From Comamonas testosteroni (GTDB lineage Bacteria; Pseudomonadota; Gammaproteobacteria; Burkholderiales; Burkholderiaceae_C): DNA of 64,000 nucleotides. Made by a program: the position numbers and the translations under genes. The stretch lies in NCBI GenBank assembly GCA_008727115.1, contig CP044131.1, forward strand, positions 4,030,001 through 4,094,000, given 5' to 3'. Under the pieces are notes generated by a model. The model searched no databases, was not told where the DNA came from, and worked only from the letters and a program-made list of their open reading frames with translations. Positions 10,634 through 18,235 of this stretch are shown piece after piece. How positions within the stretch are numbered: the first letter of the stretch is position 1; each line of letters starts with the position of its first letter.

Positions 10634-11218
10634 TCAGGCGTGCTCAAAGTGGAACACCGCCGTCGTTGCCAGCAGGTTGGGCAGGCTGCGCACGACCTCA
10701 CCGCTTTGTAGGCCGAAGGAGTCCAGAATGCGCAGGCGGTTCTTGGTCGCCAGCACCTCAAAGTCCTTGTAGGTGCCCACGCGGATATTGGGCGTGTCGT
10801 ACCACTGATAGGGCAGGCGGCGCGTCACAGGCATGCGCCCGCGCAGCACGGACAGGCGGTTGTGCCAGTGCGCAAAGTTGGGGAAGGCGACGATGCCCTG
10901 CTTGCCGATGCGGGCCGTCTCCTGCAGCATCACCTCGGCATTGCGCAGATGCTGCAGCGTGTCGATCTGCAGCACCACATCAAAACTGTTGTCGCCAAAG
11001 ATGGCCAGGCCGTCTTCCAGATTCAGCTGCAGCACGTTCACGCCGCGCCGCGTACAGGCCAGCACATTGGCGTCGTTCAGCTCCACGCCATAGCCGCTGC
11101 AGCCGCGCTCACGCACCAGATGCTCGAGCAACGCGCCGTCGCCGCAACCCAGGTCCAGCACGCGCGAGCCCTGGGGCACCAACTGGGCAATGGCTTTCAT
11201 GGTGGTCAACTCGGTCAT
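10634..11218 (-). CDS. metW: Methionine biosynthesis protein MetW
   Basis: MetW is a SAM-methyltransferase-fold protein encoded next to metX and thought to assist or activate homoserine acetylation. The 194-residue product has the Rossmann motif [15 protein letters not shown] (about residues 20-34), the acidic strand-2 region [10 protein letters not shown] and the strand-4 segment [14 protein letters not shown]. It continues to the family C-terminus with [20 protein letters not shown]. The start overlaps the metX stop by 4 bases (ATGA), which indicates translational coupling, so it should share the SAM-II leader control of metX. Confidence 0.93.
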
Positions 11219-12381
11219 GCGACTTCTCCCTGGAGTTTTTCTGCGCGTTTGGTGATGTTCAGTTCCTTGGCAATGCCCTCGAAATAAGAGCGCATCACGC
11301 TCATGTAGCGCGGGTCGTCAAGCAAAAACGCATCATGGCCATGGGGCGCATCGATCTCGGCATAGCTCACGTCGCGGTTGTTTTCCAGCAGCGATTTGAC
11401 GATCTCGCGGCTGCGGTCCGGGGCAAAGCGCCAGTCGGTGGTAAAGCTCACCAGCAGGAATTTGGCCTGGGCAGCAGCCAGTGCCTGCGTCAGGTTACCG
11501 CCGTGATTGCGGGCCGGGTCGAAGTAGTCCAGTGCGCGGGTGATCAGCAAATAAGTGTTGGCGTCGAAATAGCCGCTGAACTTCTCGCCCTGATAGCGCA
11601 GATAGCTCTCGATCTGGAACTCCACATCCTGCGTGCTGTATTTGAGGTCGATGCCATCACGCAGCTGGCGGCCGAACTTCTGGTTCATCACGTCGTCGCT
11701 GAGGTAGGTGATGTGACCAATCATTCGCGCAATGCGCAGGCCACGAGCGGGCACCACGCCATGCTCATAGAAATGACCGCCGTTGAAATCCGGGTCGGTC
11801 ACGATGGCGCGGCGCGCCACCTCGTTGAAGGCAATGTTTTCGGCATTCAGATTGGGCGCGCTGGCCACCACCACGGCGTGGCCCATGCGCTCGGGGTAGC
11901 GCAGCGACCAGGACAGCGTCTGCATGCCGCCAAGGCTGCCGCCCAGCACGGCGGCCAGCTTCTGGATACCCAGGCGGTCCAGCAGGCGGGCTTGCGAATC
12001 CACCCAGTCCTCCACCGTCACCACCGGGAAGTCCGCGCCATAAGGCTTGCCTGTGGCGGGGTTGGTGTGCATGGGGCCCGTGGAGCCAAAGCAGGAGCCC
12101 AGGTTGTTGATGCCAATGACGAAGAACTTGTTGGTATCCACGGCCTTGCCCGGGCCAATCATGTTGTCCCACCAGCCCGTGCTCTTGGGCTGACCTTCGT
12201 AGTAGCCGGCAACGTGGTGAGAAGCGTTCAGCGCATGACAGACCACGATGGCGTTGCTCTTGTCGGCATTGAGCTGGCCATAGGTCTCGAAGGCGAGGTC
12301 GTAGTTGGCGATGGAGCCACCACCCTGCAAGGGCAGCGCCTCATCGAAATGCATGGATTGCGGTGTGGCGATGAAGGACAT
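11215..12381 (-). CDS. metX: Homoserine O-acyltransferase MetX
   Basis: MetX activates homoserine by O-acylation (acetyl- or succinyl-CoA), the first committed step of methionine synthesis. The 388-residue product has an alpha/beta hydrolase fold with nucleophile elbow GGSLGGMQ (Ser near 148), Asp in [13 protein letters not shown] and His in DAPHGHDAF. The family segments YDLAFETYG and [13 protein letters not shown] are present. The chosen ATG at 12381 lies 3 nt beyond the T-run of a terminator hairpin; there is no clear Shine-Dalgarno sequence. The longer open frame up to 12534 would read through the riboswitch and is rejected. metW overlaps its 3' end by 4 bases. Confidence 0.94.
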
Positions 12382-12384
12382 ATG

Positions 12385-12419
12385 AAAAAACCCGGCATCG
12401 CTAAAAACGAGGCCGGGTT
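12385..12419 (-). terminator. Intrinsic terminator in the metX leader (riboswitch expression platform)
   Basis: On the minus strand AACCCGGC and GCCGGGTT form an 8-bp stem, with TCG/CGA pairing further inside, followed by a T-run that ends 3 nt before the metX ATG. Its place between the SAM-II-like aptamer and metX suggests transcription attenuation when SAM is abundant. Confidence 0.8.
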
Positions 12420-12424
12420 CTCTG

Positions 12425-12480
12425 GTTTCGTCTTTAGCAGGATTTATAGAGCGCCCGCAAGCAGAAGCAAATCGGCGCGT
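12425..12480 (-). ncRNA. SAM-II (SAM-alpha) riboswitch aptamer upstream of metX
   Basis: Read on the minus strand, the leader contains, in order, GCGCC, GATTTG, CTTGCGG, GGCGC, TAAA and GCTAAAGA. GCGCC and GGCGC form stem P1, and CCTGC can pair back to GCGGG in the loop side to give the pseudoknot. The invariant-looking GATTTG, CTTGC, TAAA and GCTAAAGA are those I know from the SAM-II/metA motif, an S-adenosylmethionine-binding RNA described mainly in alphaproteobacteria upstream of metA and metX. It lies 44 nt before metX with a terminator in between. Not tested by covariance search. Confidence 0.82.
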
Positions 12481-12585
12481 TGAAAGGTCAGTGTACTGCA
12501 TCCACCACAACCGCCCGGGGGCTAAGCACGTCAAAGCACCATAGCCCTTCAGCAGAAAGCGCGGGAAGCTACACCTTTTATAGCG

Positions 12586-13155
12586 TCATACCTTAGTCAA
12601 GAGTGCTGCAATGCCCAGCACCAGAAAGATCACGGCACAAACGCGGTGAATCGTCTTGATGGGCAGCCTCTTCGTGATCTTCTCGCCAAACCACACCACC
12701 GGCGCATTGGCCAGCATCATGCCCAGCGTCGTCCCCAACACCACCCAGTAATAAGACAGCGGATATTTAGCCGCCAGTCCCACAGTCGCCAACTGGGTCT
12801 TGTCTCCCATCTCCGCCAGGAAGAACAGCACCAGCGTGGTACCGAAAATGCCCCAACGCCCCGTGCCATTGCCGGTATCGTCATCGTCAAGCTTGTCAGG
12901 GATCAGCATCCAGCCAGCCATGAGGATGAAGGACACGCCCAGAATCCAGCGCAACGTATCCGGACCAAGCACCGTAGTGATCCAGTTGCCGACCGCTCCA
13001 GCCAGCGCATGGTTGACCACCGTGGCCGCAAAAATTCCCGCCACGATGGGCCAGGGCTTGCGAAATTTGGCCGCCAATACCAGTGAAAGGAGTTGGGTCT
13101 TGTCTCCCATCTCGGCCAAAGCGACGATGGAGGTAGAAATCAGAAAAGCTTCCAT
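12586..13155 (-). CDS. GDT1/UPF0016 (TMEM165) family manganese exporter
   Basis: GDT1 family proteins are Mn2+/Ca2+ exporters; Vibrio MneA is a bacterial example that protects from Mn excess. The 189-residue product has six likely membrane helices and the two family signatures, ALAEMGDKTQL near residue 13 and FLAEMGDKTQL near residue 115, whose acidic residues carry the cation. An acidic linker (KLDDDDTGN) joins the halves. The ATG at 13155 puts MEAFLIST at the N-terminus; the 12 in-frame codons upstream lie in the leader hairpin. A yybP-ykoY riboswitch precedes it, supporting Mn2+ as substrate and Mn-induced expression. Confidence 0.92.
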   Translation of the reverse strand: MEAFLISTSIVALAEMGDKTQLLSLVLAAKFRKPWPIVAGIFAATVVNHALAGAVGNWITTVLGPDTLRWILGVSFILMAGWMLIPDKLDDDDTGNGTGRWGIFGTTLVLFFLAEMGDKTQLATVGLAAKYPLSYYWVVLGTTLGMMLANAPVVWFGEKITKRLPIKTIHRVCAVIFLVLGIAALLTKV

Positions 13156-13169
13156 GAGGGGATAGAAAT

Positions 13170-13213
13170 GGCCGGAGTTGCCAAAACGCATTGACCACGC
13201 ACCGACTCCGGCC
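13170..13213 (-). promoter_or_regulatory. Expression platform hairpin between the Mn riboswitch and the GDT1 start
   Basis: On the minus strand GGCCGGAGT and ACTCCGGCC form a perfect 9-bp stem. Within its loop GTGGTCAATG (13189-13198) is the exact partner, with one G-U, of CATTGACTAC in the 3' arm of the aptamer. The two pairings exclude each other, as expected for a switch. Confidence 0.65.
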
Positions 13214-13233: not shown

Positions 13234-13380
13234 CGGTACGTAGTCAATGGTCTCGACCAGTCACACCCATGAATTGCTCATGGTGCCGCATGCGCCATAG
13301 ATCACAAGGATCCAAGTCTGTTGACGCATGCATCCGGCAGATGGCTGCCGAACGGCCTACTCCCCAAAGACAGTAGACCG
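13234..13380 (-). ncRNA. yybP-ykoY (Mn2+) riboswitch upstream of the GDT1 gene
   Basis: Minus-strand landmarks are TTTGGGGAGTAG near the 5' end, GTCAACA in the middle, and GGTCGAGACCATTGAC near the 3' end, closed by CGGT/ACCG. These are the conserved loops of the manganese-sensing yybP-ykoY class. Mn2+ binding is expected to turn on the downstream exporter. Confidence 0.9.
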
Positions 13381-13653: not shown

Positions 13654-14040
13654 ATGGGCAACAAGCTTTACGTAGGCAATCTGCCTTATTCTTTCCGCGA
13701 CCAAGACCTGGAGCAGGCCTTCAGCGAATTCGGTACTGTGAACAGCGCCAAGGTGATGATGGAGCGCGACACAGGTCGTTCCAAGGGCTTTGGCTTTGTG
13801 GAAATGGGCAGCGATGCAGAAGCACAAGCCGCTATCCAAGGCCTGCACGGCCAAAACCACGGTGGTCGTGACCTCGTTGTGAACGAAGCACGCCCCATGG
13901 AACCCCGCCCCCCCCGCTCCGGCGGCTTTGGTGGTGGCTTCGGTGGCGGCCGTGAAGGCGGCTTCGGTGGTGGCCGTGGTGACGGCGGCTTCGGCGGTGG
14001 CCGTGGCGATGGCGGCTACGGTCGTCGCAATAGCTACTAA
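13654..14040 (+). CDS. Single-RRM glycine-rich RNA-binding protein, paralogue 1
   Basis: The 128-residue product has one RNA recognition motif (residues 3-80) with RNP2 KLYVGNLPY and RNP1 KGFGFVEM. A low-complexity tail follows, built from FGGG, RGDGG and related glycine/arginine/phenylalanine repeats. Similar small proteins in cyanobacteria and proteobacteria bind RNA and are often cold-induced. The ATG at 13654 follows AGGAG by 6 bases. A strong terminator lies 19 bp downstream. Its first 88 residues match 74 of 88 in the second copy at 15404, so they are duplicates now separated by an IS30 element. Role in cold adaptation is inferred from the family. Confidence 0.92.
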   Translation: MGNKLYVGNLPYSFRDQDLEQAFSEFGTVNSAKVMMERDTGRSKGFGFVEMGSDAEAQAAIQGLHGQNHGGRDLVVNEARPMEPRPPRSGGFGGGFGGGREGGFGGGRGDGGFGGGRGDGGYGRRNSY

Positions 14041-14133: not shown

Positions 14134-15255
14134 GGCGGATTCAAATGTGAAGTGCAACACCCTTGAATTCAATGGATGAGGGTGGAGTGCTGGGGAGAGT
14201 TGATCAGTAGCTCTCGATAAACCGACAGCGGTGATCGTACCCCAAGGCCCTTGCGAGGGCGGTTGTTGATTTCATCAGCAATCGCATCGAGTTGCTCTTG
14301 GCTGTAGATGCTCAGATCCATGCCTTTGGGCAGGTACTGGCGCACCAAGCCATTCATGTTCTCGTTGGAGCCACGCTGCCACGGGCTGTGTGGGTCACAG
14401 AAGTACACCGCCACGCCCGTGTTGGCGGTCAATTGCTTGTGTAGCGCCATCTCCTTGCCCTGGTCGTACGTCATGCTTTGGCGCATGGGCTGCGCAATGC
14501 CCAGCAGCTTATCTGTAAAGGCTTGCATGACATTGGCTGCACTGGCTGGTTTGAACGCAGGCAACTTGACCAGCATGAGCAGTCGGCTGGTGCGCTCGAC
14601 CAAGGTGCCTACGGCACTTGCATTGCCAGCACCCTTGATGAGGTCACCTTCCCAATGCCCTGGGAACTGCCGATCCTCAACTTCAGGCGGACGTACGTGG
14701 ATGCTGAGCATGTCTGGGATCTGTCCACGACGATCCTGTCCTTTGCTACGGGGCAGCCGTTTGTTGTGAGCATGGCGCAAAGTGGCAATCAATTCCTTGC
14801 GCAACTCACCCACGGGCTGGGCATAGATGCAGTTGTAGATGGTTTCGTGCGACACGCGTAGCTCATGGCCTTTGGGGTACAGGCGTGCAAGTGTCAGCGC
14901 AATTTGCTCTGGTGACCAACGCAAACGCAAGAAATGCAATACCAAGAACCACAAGATCCCTTGTGAATGAAGCTTGGGATCAGATCTTGTGCTGCGTCTT
15001 CTGTAAAGCCACTGCTGTTGCGCTTGCCTGCTGGCATATCCATCGCTGGATACTGAGTTGCGAGCAATCTCACGGCTGACGGTGCTGGCACTGCGCCCTA
15101 GCAAACGCGCAATGCTGCGTACGCTATGACGCTGCAGCAGCAAACTGGCTATGGTGACTCTGTCTTCTGGTTGAAGTTGGCGATAGGACGAACGACTTGC
15201 TGACATCTGCTGACCTTAACGGTTGCAGGTGTTGCACTTCACATTTGAATCCGCC
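14134..15255 (-). mobile_element. Complete IS30-family insertion sequence (1122 bp)
   Basis: The ends are perfect 28-bp inverted repeats (14134-14161 and 15228-15255, starting GGCGGATTC). ATG at 14131-14133 and 15256-15258 forms a 3-bp target duplication. One transposase fills the element. Intact ends, duplication and frame suggest a recent simple insertion. It sits between the terminator of RRM gene 1 and the promoter region of RRM gene 2. Confidence 0.95.
14169..15206 (-). CDS. IS30 family transposase
   Basis: The 345-residue transposase has an N-terminal helix-turn-helix (LQPEDRVTIASLLLQ, SIARLLGRSASTVSREI, about residues 12-50). A DDE core has D in HWEGDLIKG (near 185), D in MTYDQGKEM (near 245) and E in RGSNENMNGLVRQYLP (near 280). 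The family end RPRKGLGVRSPLSVY is present. Length is normal for IS30 members and no frameshift is seen, so it is probably functional. It starts 22 bp inside the right terminal repeat. Confidence 0.96.
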   Translation of the reverse strand: MSASRSSYRQLQPEDRVTIASLLLQRHSVRSIARLLGRSASTVSREIARNSVSSDGYASRQAQQQWLYRRRSTRSDPKLHSQGILWFLVLHFLRLRWSPEQIALTLARLYPKGHELRVSHETIYNCIYAQPVGELRKELIATLRHAHNKRLPRSKGQDRRGQIPDMLSIHVRPPEVEDRQFPGHWEGDLIKGAGNASAVGTLVERTSRLLMLVKLPAFKPASAANVMQAFTDKLLGIAQPMRQSMTYDQGKEMALHKQLTANTGVAVYFCDPHSPWQRGSNENMNGLVRQYLPKGMDLSIYSQEQLDAIADEINNRPRKGLGVRSPLSVYRELLINSPQHSTLIH

Positions 15256-15403: not shown

Positions 15404-15859
15404 ATGGGCAATAAGCTGTATGTCGGAAACCTTCCATATGGTGTACGCGACAACGATCTGGAGCAAGCATTCAGCCAATTTGGAGCTGTAGAAAGTGCAC
15501 GCGTCATGATGGAACGTGACACAGGTCGCTCCAAAGGCTTTGGCTTCGTAGAAATGGCCAGTGAAGCAGAAGCACAAGCCGCCATTCAAGGAATGAATGG
15601 TCAGCCATTGGGTGGTCGCAGCCTGGTCGTCAATGAAGCTCGCCCCATGGAGCCACGCCCTCCACGTACAGGCGGCTATGGTGGCGGCTTCCGCAACGAA
15701 GGTGGCTATGGCGGTGGCCGCAATGATGGCGGTTACGGCCGTGGCGATGGAGGCTACGGCAGTGGCCGCAGCGATGGCGGCTTCCGTAGTCCCTACGGCT
15801 CCGGCCCACGCCATGGCGGTCGTGGAGGCTATGGCAACGGCAATAACCACAGCGAATAA
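15404..15859 (+). CDS. Single-RRM glycine-rich RNA-binding protein, paralogue 2
   Basis: The 151-residue product repeats the architecture of the upstream copy: RRM at residues 3-80 with KLYVGNLPY and KGFGFVEM, then a low-complexity tail. Here the tail is richer in tyrosine (GGYGGG, GDGGYG, RGGYGNG) and longer. GAGG and AGGAG motifs precede the ATG. The IS30 element ends 148 bp upstream, so at least part of the original promoter region may have been moved away; expression could now depend on sequence inside or near the element. A terminator follows directly. Confidence 0.92.
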   Translation: MGNKLYVGNLPYGVRDNDLEQAFSQFGAVESARVMMERDTGRSKGFGFVEMASEAEAQAAIQGMNGQPLGGRSLVVNEARPMEPRPPRTGGYGGGFRNEGGYGGGRNDGGYGRGDGGYGSGRSDGGFRSPYGSGPRHGGRGGYGNGNNHSE

Positions 15860-16045: not shown

Positions 16046-17510
16046 GGCTCTATGCCGTTTTGTGTGGAAACGCTTCGCGTCATGTCGGCATGGCTGGCGC
16101 GAACGGACTGGCCGGCAGGTGCTTGAGCTTGGACATGCGCAGGTAGGCGATGGCGATGAAGTTCTGGCTCGTCCTGAAGCCGCGCGCGGCGCGCTTGGCC
16201 TGCTGCAGCAGCCCGTTCATCGCCTCGACGAAGGCGTTGCTGCGGTGATCGACCATGCCGCGCACCACCGCGTCGAACCGCTCCTTGAGCGTGGCGGCCA
16301 GCTTCTTGAACGGCTCGAGCCGACAGCGCCGCGCCCAGCTCAGCCAGGCCCTGAGGTCGGATGCGGCCTGTTCGATGCTGTTGTGCGCTGTGGCCCGTGC
16401 GTACACCGCGCGCAGCGCCATCTTCAGCCGCCACGCCCGCGCGCTCTTGAGCGTCGAGCGCTGCAGCCAGTGCATGGCATCGAGCTGGCGGGCGCTCCAG
16501 GTGCTGGGGTTGCGCCGCATGCCCCACAGCAGCTGCCTGAGCGTCTTGCGGCCGCCAGCGCCCAGCGCGGCTCGCACCGCCTGCGCGTCGGTGGCCATCT
16601 CCGCGCGGCGCACCTGGTCCATCGCATCGATGGCCATCGAGACGACGTGAAAGCGGTCGTAGCTGATCTGCGCCTCGGGCAGCGCCAGCGCCACGCCCTT
16701 GGCGTAGGCTGCGCTCATGTCCATGCACACGTGCCGCACCTGGGCGGGATCGCCGCCATGGGCCTTCAGATCCTCGGCGAACTCCACCACCGTGCGGTGC
16801 TCGCGCCCCTCGGTGGCGAACAGCAGCCGCTTGCGATCCAGGTCGTGCACGACGGTGATGTAGTGCTGCCCGCGCCGCAGGCTGGTCTCGTCGATGCCCA
16901 CCGTGCGCACGCCGGCGAAGTCTTCCAGCGCACGCGCCTGCGCGACGTAGAACTCGATGCGCCGCCACAGCCGCTTGTCCTTGCAGCGCAGCAACTCGGC
17001 GGCCTGGCGCACCGGCAGGTCCAGGCACAAGGTCAGCGCCAGCGCTTCGAACGCCGCGGTGAAGCCCGAGCCCGGACGCGCCCAGGGCACGGCCACCTGC
17101 GTGGTCTTGCCGCAGGCACCGCAGGCCACGCGCGGCACGTCGCAGTGCAGCCAGGCCTCGAACTGGAAGAAGTCCAGGTGCCGCCAGGATCGGCGCAGCC
17201 GGTCGTGCACCGGTTGCGTGGCCGCACCGCATGCCGGGCAGGCGAGCCTGCTGGTGTGGCAGCCGATCTCGAAGTCGATACGCCGCTTGGCGGTGTCGAG
17301 CCTGACGTCATCGACGACCCACGGCGGCTGCAAGCCCAGCGCGCTGGTGAACAGAGCTTCTACGGCAATGCCCATGGACTCATCCTCCTGATCAAACACG
17401 CCTCGTGGACATGTGCACAGGCCGGCCAGCGGCCTGCACACATGCCCACCGGGCTCAACAACCAGGGGAGCATTGTGAGTGTTGTGTTCCACACGAAATG
17501 ACGAAGGACC
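16046..17510 (-). mobile_element. Complete ISL3-family insertion sequence (1465 bp)
   Basis: Imperfect terminal repeats of 24 bp (16046-16069 and 17487-17510, 17 of 24 matching, sharing GTGTGGAA) bound the element. An exact 8-bp target duplication GGCAAGAC lies at 16038-16045 and 17511-17518. Eight-base duplications are typical of ISL3. It carries one intact transposase and interrupts the SDR gene. Confidence 0.95.
16080..17375 (-). CDS. ISL3 family transposase
   Basis: The 431-residue transposase has an N-terminal zinc-binding region (LACPACGAATQ, then RVACGACGK, residues 40-100), a helix-turn-helix around VRQAAELLRC and a DDE core. D lies in VGIDETSLRRG, D in HVCMDMSAAYAKG and E in FVEAMNGLLQQAKR near the C-terminus (RGFRTSQNFIAIAYL). 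The ATG at 17375 has AGGAGG nine bases upstream and gives the usual family length; the longer frame to 17552 crosses the IS end. GC content is higher than in the interrupted gene. Confidence 0.95.
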   Translation of the reverse strand: MGIAVEALFTSALGLQPPWVVDDVRLDTAKRRIDFEIGCHTSRLACPACGAATQPVHDRLRRSWRHLDFFQFEAWLHCDVPRVACGACGKTTQVAVPWARPGSGFTAAFEALALTLCLDLPVRQAAELLRCKDKRLWRRIEFYVAQARALEDFAGVRTVGIDETSLRRGQHYITVVHDLDRKRLLFATEGREHRTVVEFAEDLKAHGGDPAQVRHVCMDMSAAYAKGVALALPEAQISYDRFHVVSMAIDAMDQVRRAEMATDAQAVRAALGAGGRKTLRQLLWGMRRNPSTWSARQLDAMHWLQRSTLKSARAWRLKMALRAVYARATAHNSIEQAASDLRAWLSWARRCRLEPFKKLAATLKERFDAVVRGMVDHRSNAFVEAMNGLLQQAKRAARGFRTSQNFIAIAYLRMSKLKHLPASPFAPAMPT

Positions 17511-18235
17511 GGCAAGACTCGCATTAGTCGGGCGACTATCCCCATCTGCCAAGGAATAATCACATATCGTGATTTTCTCTCAATGACTCGATATGCACGC
17601 TTCGCAAACACTTCAGAAGAAAGCAAGAAAGGCATTGGGTAAGGATTATTTTGCGTCAGAGGAGTATCAACATAGCCCGGTAAGACGCTAATCACCGAAA
17701 CTCCTGTCCTCTGGAGTTCAACCCTCAAGCTTTCACTATAAGCAATAGCAGCCGCCTTGCTGGCTGAATATGCAGCATGCCCCGGCAAGCCTCTTACGCC
17801 AGCCACACTACAAATACTGACCAAGCGACCTGCGCCATGCAGTTTCATAGGCTCTATAAATGGTTGAAACGTAGCAGCCAAGCCTAAAGTGTTGCTGGCA
17901 AGCACCTGTTGCATGACATCAAGATCCTCACGCAAAGAGGTATCTACGCCCCAACTAACCCCTGCATTGGCAATTACGACATCAGGCACGCCCTGACGAG
18001 CGATGCACTCCTGACCTGCAGCGCAGATGCTGTCGATATTCGTGACATCCGCACCATAAGCAGTCCAGCGAGACGCATCCAACTGCATGATCTGCGCCCA
18101 CTGCTCAATCACAGCAGTACGCCTTGCCACCAGTGCAAGCGACCACCTAAGCTGATAGTAGTGCCAAGCCAAAGCCTGCCCTATGCCACTGGAAGCGCCA
18201 GTGATATAGATGAGATTTGACCGAGCTTTTGCCAC
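17360..18235 (-). CDS. SDR family oxidoreductase, 3' end interrupted by ISL3 element
   Basis: The product is a short-chain dehydrogenase with the NAD(P) motif TGASSGIGQ (near residue 13), NAG in IANAGVS, the catalytic Ser in SICSVAG and YSASK (Tyr/Lys near 157). Native sequence ends at about residue 240 (IVARLMRVLP); the last 50 residues are read from IS DNA. Loss of the native C-terminal 22 residues may or may not abolish activity. It starts with GTG, 3 bp after lptC, as last gene of the kdsD-kdsC-lptC group. Its DNA is visibly less GC-rich than the window average. Substrate unknown. Confidence 0.85.
   Translation of the reverse strand: MAKARSNLIYITGASSGIGQALAWHYYQLRWSLALVARRTAVIEQWAQIMQLDASRWTAYGADVTNIDSICAAGQECIARQGVPDVVIANAGVSWGVDTSLREDLDVMQQVLASNTLGLAATFQPFIEPMKLHGAGRLVSICSVAGVRGLPGHAAYSASKAAAIAYSESLRVELQRTGVSVISVLPGYVDTPLTQNNPYPMPFLLSSEVFAKRAYRVIERKSRYVIIPWQMGIVARLMRVLPVLRHFVWNTTLTMLPWLLSPVGMCAGRWPACAHVHEACLIRRMSPWALP

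Follow-up and report, generated by a model that had tools for sequence, protein, structure and literature searches.

The window, by which we mean the whole 64,000-nt stretch of DNA analysed here, carries on its minus strand a metX gene encoding a homoserine O-acyltransferase, followed by metW, which by its coordinates overlaps the metX stop codon. A SAM-II-type element lies upstream of metX-metW on the same strand, and the span 12385-12480 first given for it is right. The first-pass annotation had described a 5-bp P1 stem, the ordered motifs GATTTG, CTTGC, TAAA and GCTAAAGA, and a transcription terminator abutting the metX start, and a check of the coordinates located all of these parts on the minus strand. 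Protein family matches also bear out the predicted target of control, metX-metW. The features are as follows, in the direction of transcription.

12490..12495, minus strand: candidate -10 box TACACT, from the sequence, with a predicted transcription start at about 12481-12484, just before P1
12416..12488, minus strand: match to the SAM-II (SAM_alpha) aptamer, RF00521, 23.3 bits, E 0.0042 on 501 bases
12474..12478, minus strand: P1 5' strand GCGCC, forming 5 bp with GGCGC at 12451-12455
12468..12473, minus strand: GATTTG, the third triplex strand of SAM-II, found also in the metX leaders collected by protein similarity, a few of which have AATTTG
12462..12467, minus strand: CTTCTG linker, the expected site of the P2a 5' strand, where the only possible pairing is UUC/GAA with a bulge
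12457..12461, minus strand: CTTGC, 5' strand of the core pseudoknot, of which UUGC is able to pair with GCUAAA
12451..12455, minus strand: P1 3' strand GGCGC, from the alignment, with double changes relative to the phylum-level loci
12439..12450, minus strand: A-rich L3 linker with TATAAAT, where some relatives have an extra hairpin
12431..12438, minus strand: GCTAAAGA, core 3' motif of SAM-II, from the sequence
12428..12438, minus strand: GCTAAAGACGA, 3' strand of the SAM pocket and pseudoknot, alternatively 5' strand of the antiterminator, with 11 contiguous pairs to 12400-12410
12400..12410, minus strand: TCGTTTTTAGC, 3' strand of the antiterminator within the terminator loop, from duplex energy, permutation and covariation
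12385..12419, minus strand: intrinsic terminator, with an 8-bp stem of AACCCGGC (12412-12419) and GCCGGGTT (12389-12396), a 15-nt loop and a T-run at 12385-12390
11215..12381, minus strand: metX, homoserine O-acyltransferase, succinyl type by NCBIfam (NF047916, 658.3 bits, cut-off 560)
10634..11218, minus strand: metW (TIGR02081, 229.8 bits, cut-off 189.5)

The next gene upstream of the leader, 12586-13191 on the minus strand, encodes a cation transporter of the GDT1 family (PF01169). It is directly preceded by a match to the Mn2+ riboswitch (yybP-ykoY, RF00080) at 13245-13377 on the minus strand, scoring 44.1 bits against a gathering cut-off of 45 (E 1.4e-10 on 651 bases); together with the SAM-II element, this would make two successive genes under riboswitch control. 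Further out, two similar genes for RRM RNA-binding proteins (13654-14040 and 15404-15859, both plus strand) lie on either side of a gene (14169-15206, minus strand) that resembles a transposase and has HTH_38 and rve domains, and an ISL3-family transposase gene (16080-17552, minus strand) follows.

The assignment of the aptamer to the SAM-II class, made initially from the motifs, was examined with the covariance model RF00521. As a single sequence the leader stays below the gathering threshold, with 23.3 bits against 36, which on the covariance-model side is the outcome that the first pass had named as speaking against SAM-II, but the match at metX is the best that SAM_alpha finds in the whole 4.14-Mb genome, with an E value of 0.008 against 1.3 for the next best; since all 14 control genomes also give matches in searches at E up to 10, only this gap and the location of the match count. 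Rfam applied at gathering to the whole window gives no match, and the related model RF01726 scores 13.6 bits on the leader against a cut-off of 44. Two further matches on the same stretch, to COG2827 (21 against a cut-off of 49.1) and, on the plus strand, to BSR0602 (12.9 against 191), lie well under these cut-offs and were rejected as chance.

Among relatives the signal is much wider. With an E value of at most 0.1, SAM_alpha matches 236 of the 299 genomes searched in the same family, 69 of them above gathering, and 2 of the 14 control genomes at E 0.1, none above gathering; some weak matches are thus due to chance and we do not take all 236 as true. At the class level 105 of 274 genomes match at E 0.01 (24 above gathering), and at the phylum level 57 of 299 match at E 0.001 (49 above gathering, with scores of up to 88 bits), in both cases with no match in the controls; scans over 40 genomes were run with stricter filters, by which weak matches may be lost. 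The Comamonas testosteroni genome is not among the phylum-level matches at E 0.001. One genome of the class, G544, carries five SAM_alpha matches above gathering, one being usual in the list.

A second covariance model, R1, was built from 45 aptamers of the window and its family with P1 as the sole helix. All 30 phylum-level SAM_alpha loci on which it was tried were found (E 2.5e-10 to 8e-4), although these were drawn from the best-scoring genomes and many are near-identical. Its single clear match in the window's own genome lies at 12427-12483, with 75.8 bits against 15.5 for the next, a score that is high by construction as the window sequence is part of the model; neither RF00521 nor R1 gave a convincing second SAM_alpha copy there. 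Moreover, when metX loci were collected by similarity of the MetX protein, 77 of 80 carried the same motif upstream of metX, the exceptions being L085, L087 and L054, whose contig begins shortly before metX. These 77 loci (of L008-L087) and the window constitute the metX set; it comprises mostly Comamonadaceae genera, with some metagenome-assembled genomes placed only at higher rank and one locus, L031, labelled 'Pantoea'. The remaining loci are grouped as family, class and phylum-level by kinship to the window's genome; we infer that the class loci include betaproteobacteria and that the phylum-level loci are probably alphaproteobacterial. The best genome match at metX, the conserved core and the cross-matches of R1 back the SAM-II class, and by sequence comparison we regard it as established that the metX leader shares common descent with the SAM-II riboswitches of other Pseudomonadota.

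A -10-like box within the 21-nt interval that stops 5 nt short of P1 recurs in 75 of the 78 metX-set leaders, against 400 of 1560 mononucleotide shuffles, in all 69 family leaders (205 of 1380 shuffled) and in 20 of 27 class leaders (176 of 540 shuffled). No promoter with a -35 element passed a promoter scan of the metX leader.

The P1 helix encloses GAUUUG and UUGC, as SAM-II requires, and it is paired in 45 of 45 aligned sequences, which were chosen by a pattern favouring paired P1 and among which it is nearly invariant. Compared with ten phylum-level sequences, two of its five pairs are changed on both sides and all 95 cells are paired; this change is a single split between two groups, and it implies at least one change per pair rather than many events. 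In SAM-II, individual bases of GCUAAA and GAUUUG make contacts to SAM in the pocket. The core formed by GAUUUG, UUGC and GCUAAA is conserved in the window and in the 77 metX loci, and the core motifs fall among 28 invariant alignment columns, partly owing to the way the sequences were picked. Pairing of UUGC with GCUAAA in the pseudoknot is possible in all 45 sequences and never varies, an invariance partly built in by the search pattern. In structures of SAM-II and SAM-V both GCUAAA and GAUUUG line the SAM pocket (PMC6061858 among the sources).

The outer pseudoknot helix, P2a, lacks support from covariation in metX-set, family and class leaders alike, and the metX set has the shortest one: mean run lengths for own and permuted partners are 2.32 and 2.31 in the metX set, 3.26 and 3.26 in the other family leaders and 2.63 and 2.76 in the class leaders, and two registers tried on alignment A2 gave no or weak support. 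In the phylum-level control the runs are 3-6 bp long; their mean over 15 distinct cases is 4.60, the permuted mean is 4.03, and 4 of 500 permutations do as well as the observed pairs. P2a length is reported to vary within SAM-II, with 5 bp in 60% of cases and 2 bp in the crystallised metX SAM-II (PMC6061858), and a short P2a was therefore not treated as excluding membership of the class. Corbino et al. (2005) report that disruption of P2 abolished SAM-dependent probing in A. tumefaciens (PMC1273637), a mutation which we take, by its position, to affect the outer part of P2.

In some relatives an extra hairpin, for example CGGAAC...GTTCCG, occurs in L3 between P1 and GCTAAA. It was seen in L033, L040, L042-L045, L056, L057, L059, L061, L062, L064-L066 and others, among them loci labelled Curvibacter, Hylemonella, Variovorax and Pseudorhodoferax; SAM-II is described as lacking a P3 (PMC6061858).

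Downstream of the aptamer, the six Ts that follow the terminator stem end 3 nt before the metX ATG (12379-12381, CAT on the forward strand). The minimum free energy (MFE) structure of the leader, at -36.4 kcal/mol (z -3.03), contains the terminator hairpin together with an inner 5-bp stem. A simple terminator scan of the leader reported nothing, probably because it permits loops of 3-8 nt only. Altogether 181 leaders were examined (the window and L008-L187), of which 175 have an aptamer by pattern, the pattern failing in L054, L085, L087, L163, L179 and L181. A terminator-like hairpin with a T-run within 190 nt is present in 160 of these 175. Counted by group, the metX set has a terminator-like hairpin in 78 of its 78 leaders with an aptamer, and a separate group of 29 phylum-level leaders, probably alphaproteobacterial, has one in 24. 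This last count, together with two papers whose passages on the subject describe SAM-II control as mostly transcriptional (PMC2258182; Huang and Lilley 2018, PMC6061858), speaks against the statement, made in the first pass, that SAM-II control in alphaproteobacteria is often translational.

The part of the metX leader that the earlier reading had missed is an antiterminator. The segment GCUAAAGACGA includes the SAM-pocket strand and forms 11 contiguous bp with UCGUUUUUAGC in the terminator loop (-12.9 kcal/mol), and wider segments yield a duplex of -18.4 kcal/mol which is equalled by one of 5000 shuffles of either side. When the transcript was folded as it grows, every 3 nt, the antiterminator entered the MFE structure from 77 nt, reached 11-12 pairs at 86-92 nt and was replaced by the terminator from 95 nt. 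For the full leader without SAM the terminator is favoured by 4.2 kcal/mol (-36.4 against -32.2), and consequently the switch must be kinetic.

This pairing is conserved and partly covaries among the leaders. Own aptamer strands pair with their own terminator 5' arm and loop at -16.96 kcal/mol in 139 unique leaders, against -13.55 for permuted partners, and at -16.49 against -13.05 in 57 cluster representatives, with none of 2000 permutations reaching the observed value in either case, although shared ancestry inflates this and the other permutation tests and weakens the figures on conservation that follow. Measured against their own shuffled hairpins, 82 of the 139 leaders and 26 of the 57 representatives are significant at p 0.05, and the pairing is thus not equally clear everywhere. 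Covariation was scored in the 38 unique leaders whose hairpin contains UUU(A/G)GC. At the first position following GCUAAA, 37 of these have a base pair (20 G-U, 12 G-C, two C-G, two U-A and one A-U), more than in any of 2000 permutations; the most telling changes are the C-G and U-A pairs of L046/L063 and L047/L078. The second and third positions are paired in 24 and 29 of the 38 leaders (1 of 2000 permutations each) and the fifth in 28 (12 of 2000), while the fourth, with 21 against 20.8 permuted, and positions -1 to -3 are not clearly above permutation in these leaders.

MFE structures computed before the terminator 3' arm show the antiterminator in 66 of 72 unique metX-set leaders, against 290 of 720 with shuffled arms; outside this set the contrast is weaker, with 48 of 60 against 239 of 600 for the family and 19 of 21 against 129 of 210 for the class. 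At full length the terminator is present in the MFE structure in 60 of 72, 43 of 60 and 10 of 21 leaders, respectively. All six bases of GCUAAA take part in the antiterminator in 36 of 63 unique metX-set leaders, and five in 9 more; six are used in 8 and five in 15 of 57 family leaders, and six in 12 and five in 3 of 21 class leaders. Switching thus relies mainly on the pocket strand in the metX set and many members of the class, and less so in the remaining family leaders. At the phylum level the terminator partner pairs mostly with the 3' strand of P2a, and among 24 leaders that have a terminator, counting near-duplicates, not one uses more than four GCUAAA bases. We had considered the pocket-strand antiterminator to be special to Comamonadaceae, an idea that was dropped as 15 of the 21 class leaders also use five or six of the GCUAAA bases.

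We think it quite likely that the metX leader is a riboswitch of the SAM-II class that turns metX-metW off by transcription termination, which in essence upholds the first-pass interpretation. Its anatomy and what is known of SAM-II lead us to infer that SAM is the ligand, that transcription terminates in the cell and that folding proceeds in the following order. At low SAM, the nascent GCUAAAGACGA would pair with the emerging UCGUUUUUAGC, and the antiterminator would occupy the terminator loop and a few bases of the 5' arm until RNA polymerase has passed, allowing read-through. When SAM is plentiful, the pseudoknot of UUGC and GCUAAA on P1 would be stabilised and the pocket strand would no longer be free; the terminator would then form, and transcription would stop just before the metX start codon. 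Judging from its position, the terminator hairpin, were it to form once polymerase has read through, would hide the start region and the ribosome site as well.

The location of the hairpin raises the question of whether control is mainly translational, with the hairpin closing off the start region and the T-run being incidental. The T-run ends 3 nt before the ATG, no good Shine-Dalgarno sequence is seen by eye outside the hairpin arm, and, by pattern, 36 of the 78 metX-set leaders have 0-3 nt between the T-run and the next ATG. However, in the other 42 the next ATG lies 4-69 nt further on with the hairpin and T-run retained, both are kept in 160 of the 175 leaders overall, and the published classification has betaproteobacterial SAM-II mostly with terminators (PMC2258182), so that we regard primarily translational control as unlikely. 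The hairpin might instead terminate transcription constitutively, perhaps serving the GDT1-family gene upstream, with a fixed read-through and no control by SAM. That gene has the same orientation and its end lies some 100 nt upstream of the aptamer, and in the complete leader the terminator is more stable than the antiterminator; against this, loop and aptamer strand match each other from leader to leader, by both permutation and covariation, and a -10-like box stands just before P1, and we consider a constitutive terminator very unlikely.

The short P2a bears on the ligand, as an aptamer so reduced could bind SAM weakly or bind another ligand. Its runs of 2.32 in the metX set are no better than permuted, compared with 4.60 in the 15 distinct phylum-level cases, but the core motifs around SAM are kept in 77 of the 80 metX loci, the crystallised metX SAM-II itself has a P2a of just 2 bp (PMC6061858), and the genes downstream are metX, metZ, metY-type, metK and probably metN; weak binding or another ligand is, on this evidence, distinctly improbable. 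The alternative to which we give least credence is the antiterminator proposed by Leyn et al. in 2014 (PMC4239095), in which GC-rich conserved regions 3 and 4 pair with the terminator stem. GGGCGC is indeed GC-rich and conserved, but in the window the P1 strand stays in P1 in the MFE structure at all sampled lengths except 74 nt, while the partner of the terminator loop is GCUAAAGACGA, and it is for this last pairing, the one scored, that covariation was seen.

SAM-II was defined by Corbino et al. (2005), who noted terminators and a few occurrences outside alphaproteobacteria (PMC1273637), and SAM-II elements followed by terminators were noted in betaproteobacteria in 2007; the class and its mode of action in betaproteobacteria were thus already outlined in print. 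A 2013 survey listed SAM-Alpha among motifs limited to at most three taxonomic groups (PMC3766115), and in the open-licence literature we found no paper on SAM-II in Comamonadaceae or Comamonas, or on SAM_alpha in Betaproteobacteria. The metX leader shares with SAM-II (RF00521) the P1 helix and the order GAUUUG, (C/A)UUGC, GCUAAA, with methionine genes and a terminator downstream, and the models match both ways. It differs in having P1 as GCGCC/GGCGC rather than the GUGGU/GCCAC of SAM_alpha, in a short P2a for which pairing support is lacking, and in an antiterminator that employs mainly the pocket strand and not the P2a strand; its score is also below gathering, which is a database cut-off and not a structural feature. 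SAM-V has the same pocket architecture and a short P2a (PMC6061858), but is translational and has a P3, whereas the metX leader has a terminator and the L3 hairpin occurs only in some relatives. The SAM-II upstream of metZ in S. meliloti, which is alphaproteobacterial, resembles it in a predicted SAM-dependent terminator that yields a leader sRNA (PMC9373788).

Another close counterpart of our leader is the metXZ element, which Leyn et al. (2014) described as a 'novel' RNA element upstream of metXW or metZ in betaproteobacteria, preceding metXW in 10 of 11 Comamonadaceae, with a pseudoknot of two region pairs, a terminator and poly-U (PMC4239095). It agrees with the metX leader in genes, clade, single copy and terminator, but was published as new and apart from SAM_alpha, which the same study reports only from Rhizobiales and Rhodobacterales (PMC4239095). 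Judged by location, clade, copy number, layout and the class loci with metZ downstream (L161, L166, L168, L171 and L175), the metXZ element is very probably the betaproteobacterial SAM-II; no other paper linking the two was found in the open-licence literature.

A more comprehensive proposal, which we rate as a whole slightly above even, is that P2a has dwindled in this branch of SAM-II, that the six nucleotides of GCUAAA serve either in holding SAM or in the antiterminator, with SAM competing directly for one strand, and that the metXZ element of betaproteobacteria is this riboswitch. What is new here is the anatomy of the switch, with its partially covarying antiterminator, the weak P2a and the identification with metXZ. 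If the proposal is true, a separately named RNA element merges with a known riboswitch class, and it becomes clear why the Rfam cut-off misses most family members (69 of 299 pass, while 236 match at E 0.1). Competition for the pocket strand would also be the transcriptional counterpart of the 'direct occlusion' of translational SAM-II, the heading under which a 2024 review places the class, and a ligand pocket and an antiterminator on one strand constitute a simple, testable layout.

The genes downstream of ten related loci extend the range of likely targets. Nine have matches above cut-off, namely five metZ, two metK, one metX and one O-acetylhomoserine sulfhydrylase; for the tenth (L182, 1501-2616), where SAM_alpha scores 35.3 bits, just under gathering, the best NCBIfam match is MetN with 453.7 bits, below the cut-off of 499.7. 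To the likely targets of SAM-II the relatives thus contribute metK, and perhaps metN; SAM would then repress a gene of its own synthesis, and metK would probably be under feedback by SAM, its product. At both metK loci (L165, 1501-2905, and L176, 169-1577) SAM-II stands before metK and an SAH riboswitch (RF01057) after it, both above gathering. The window's own genome has two SAH riboswitches, at G000:C1 97963-98072 and 490462-490562, with 57.6 and 57 bits against a cut-off of 37.
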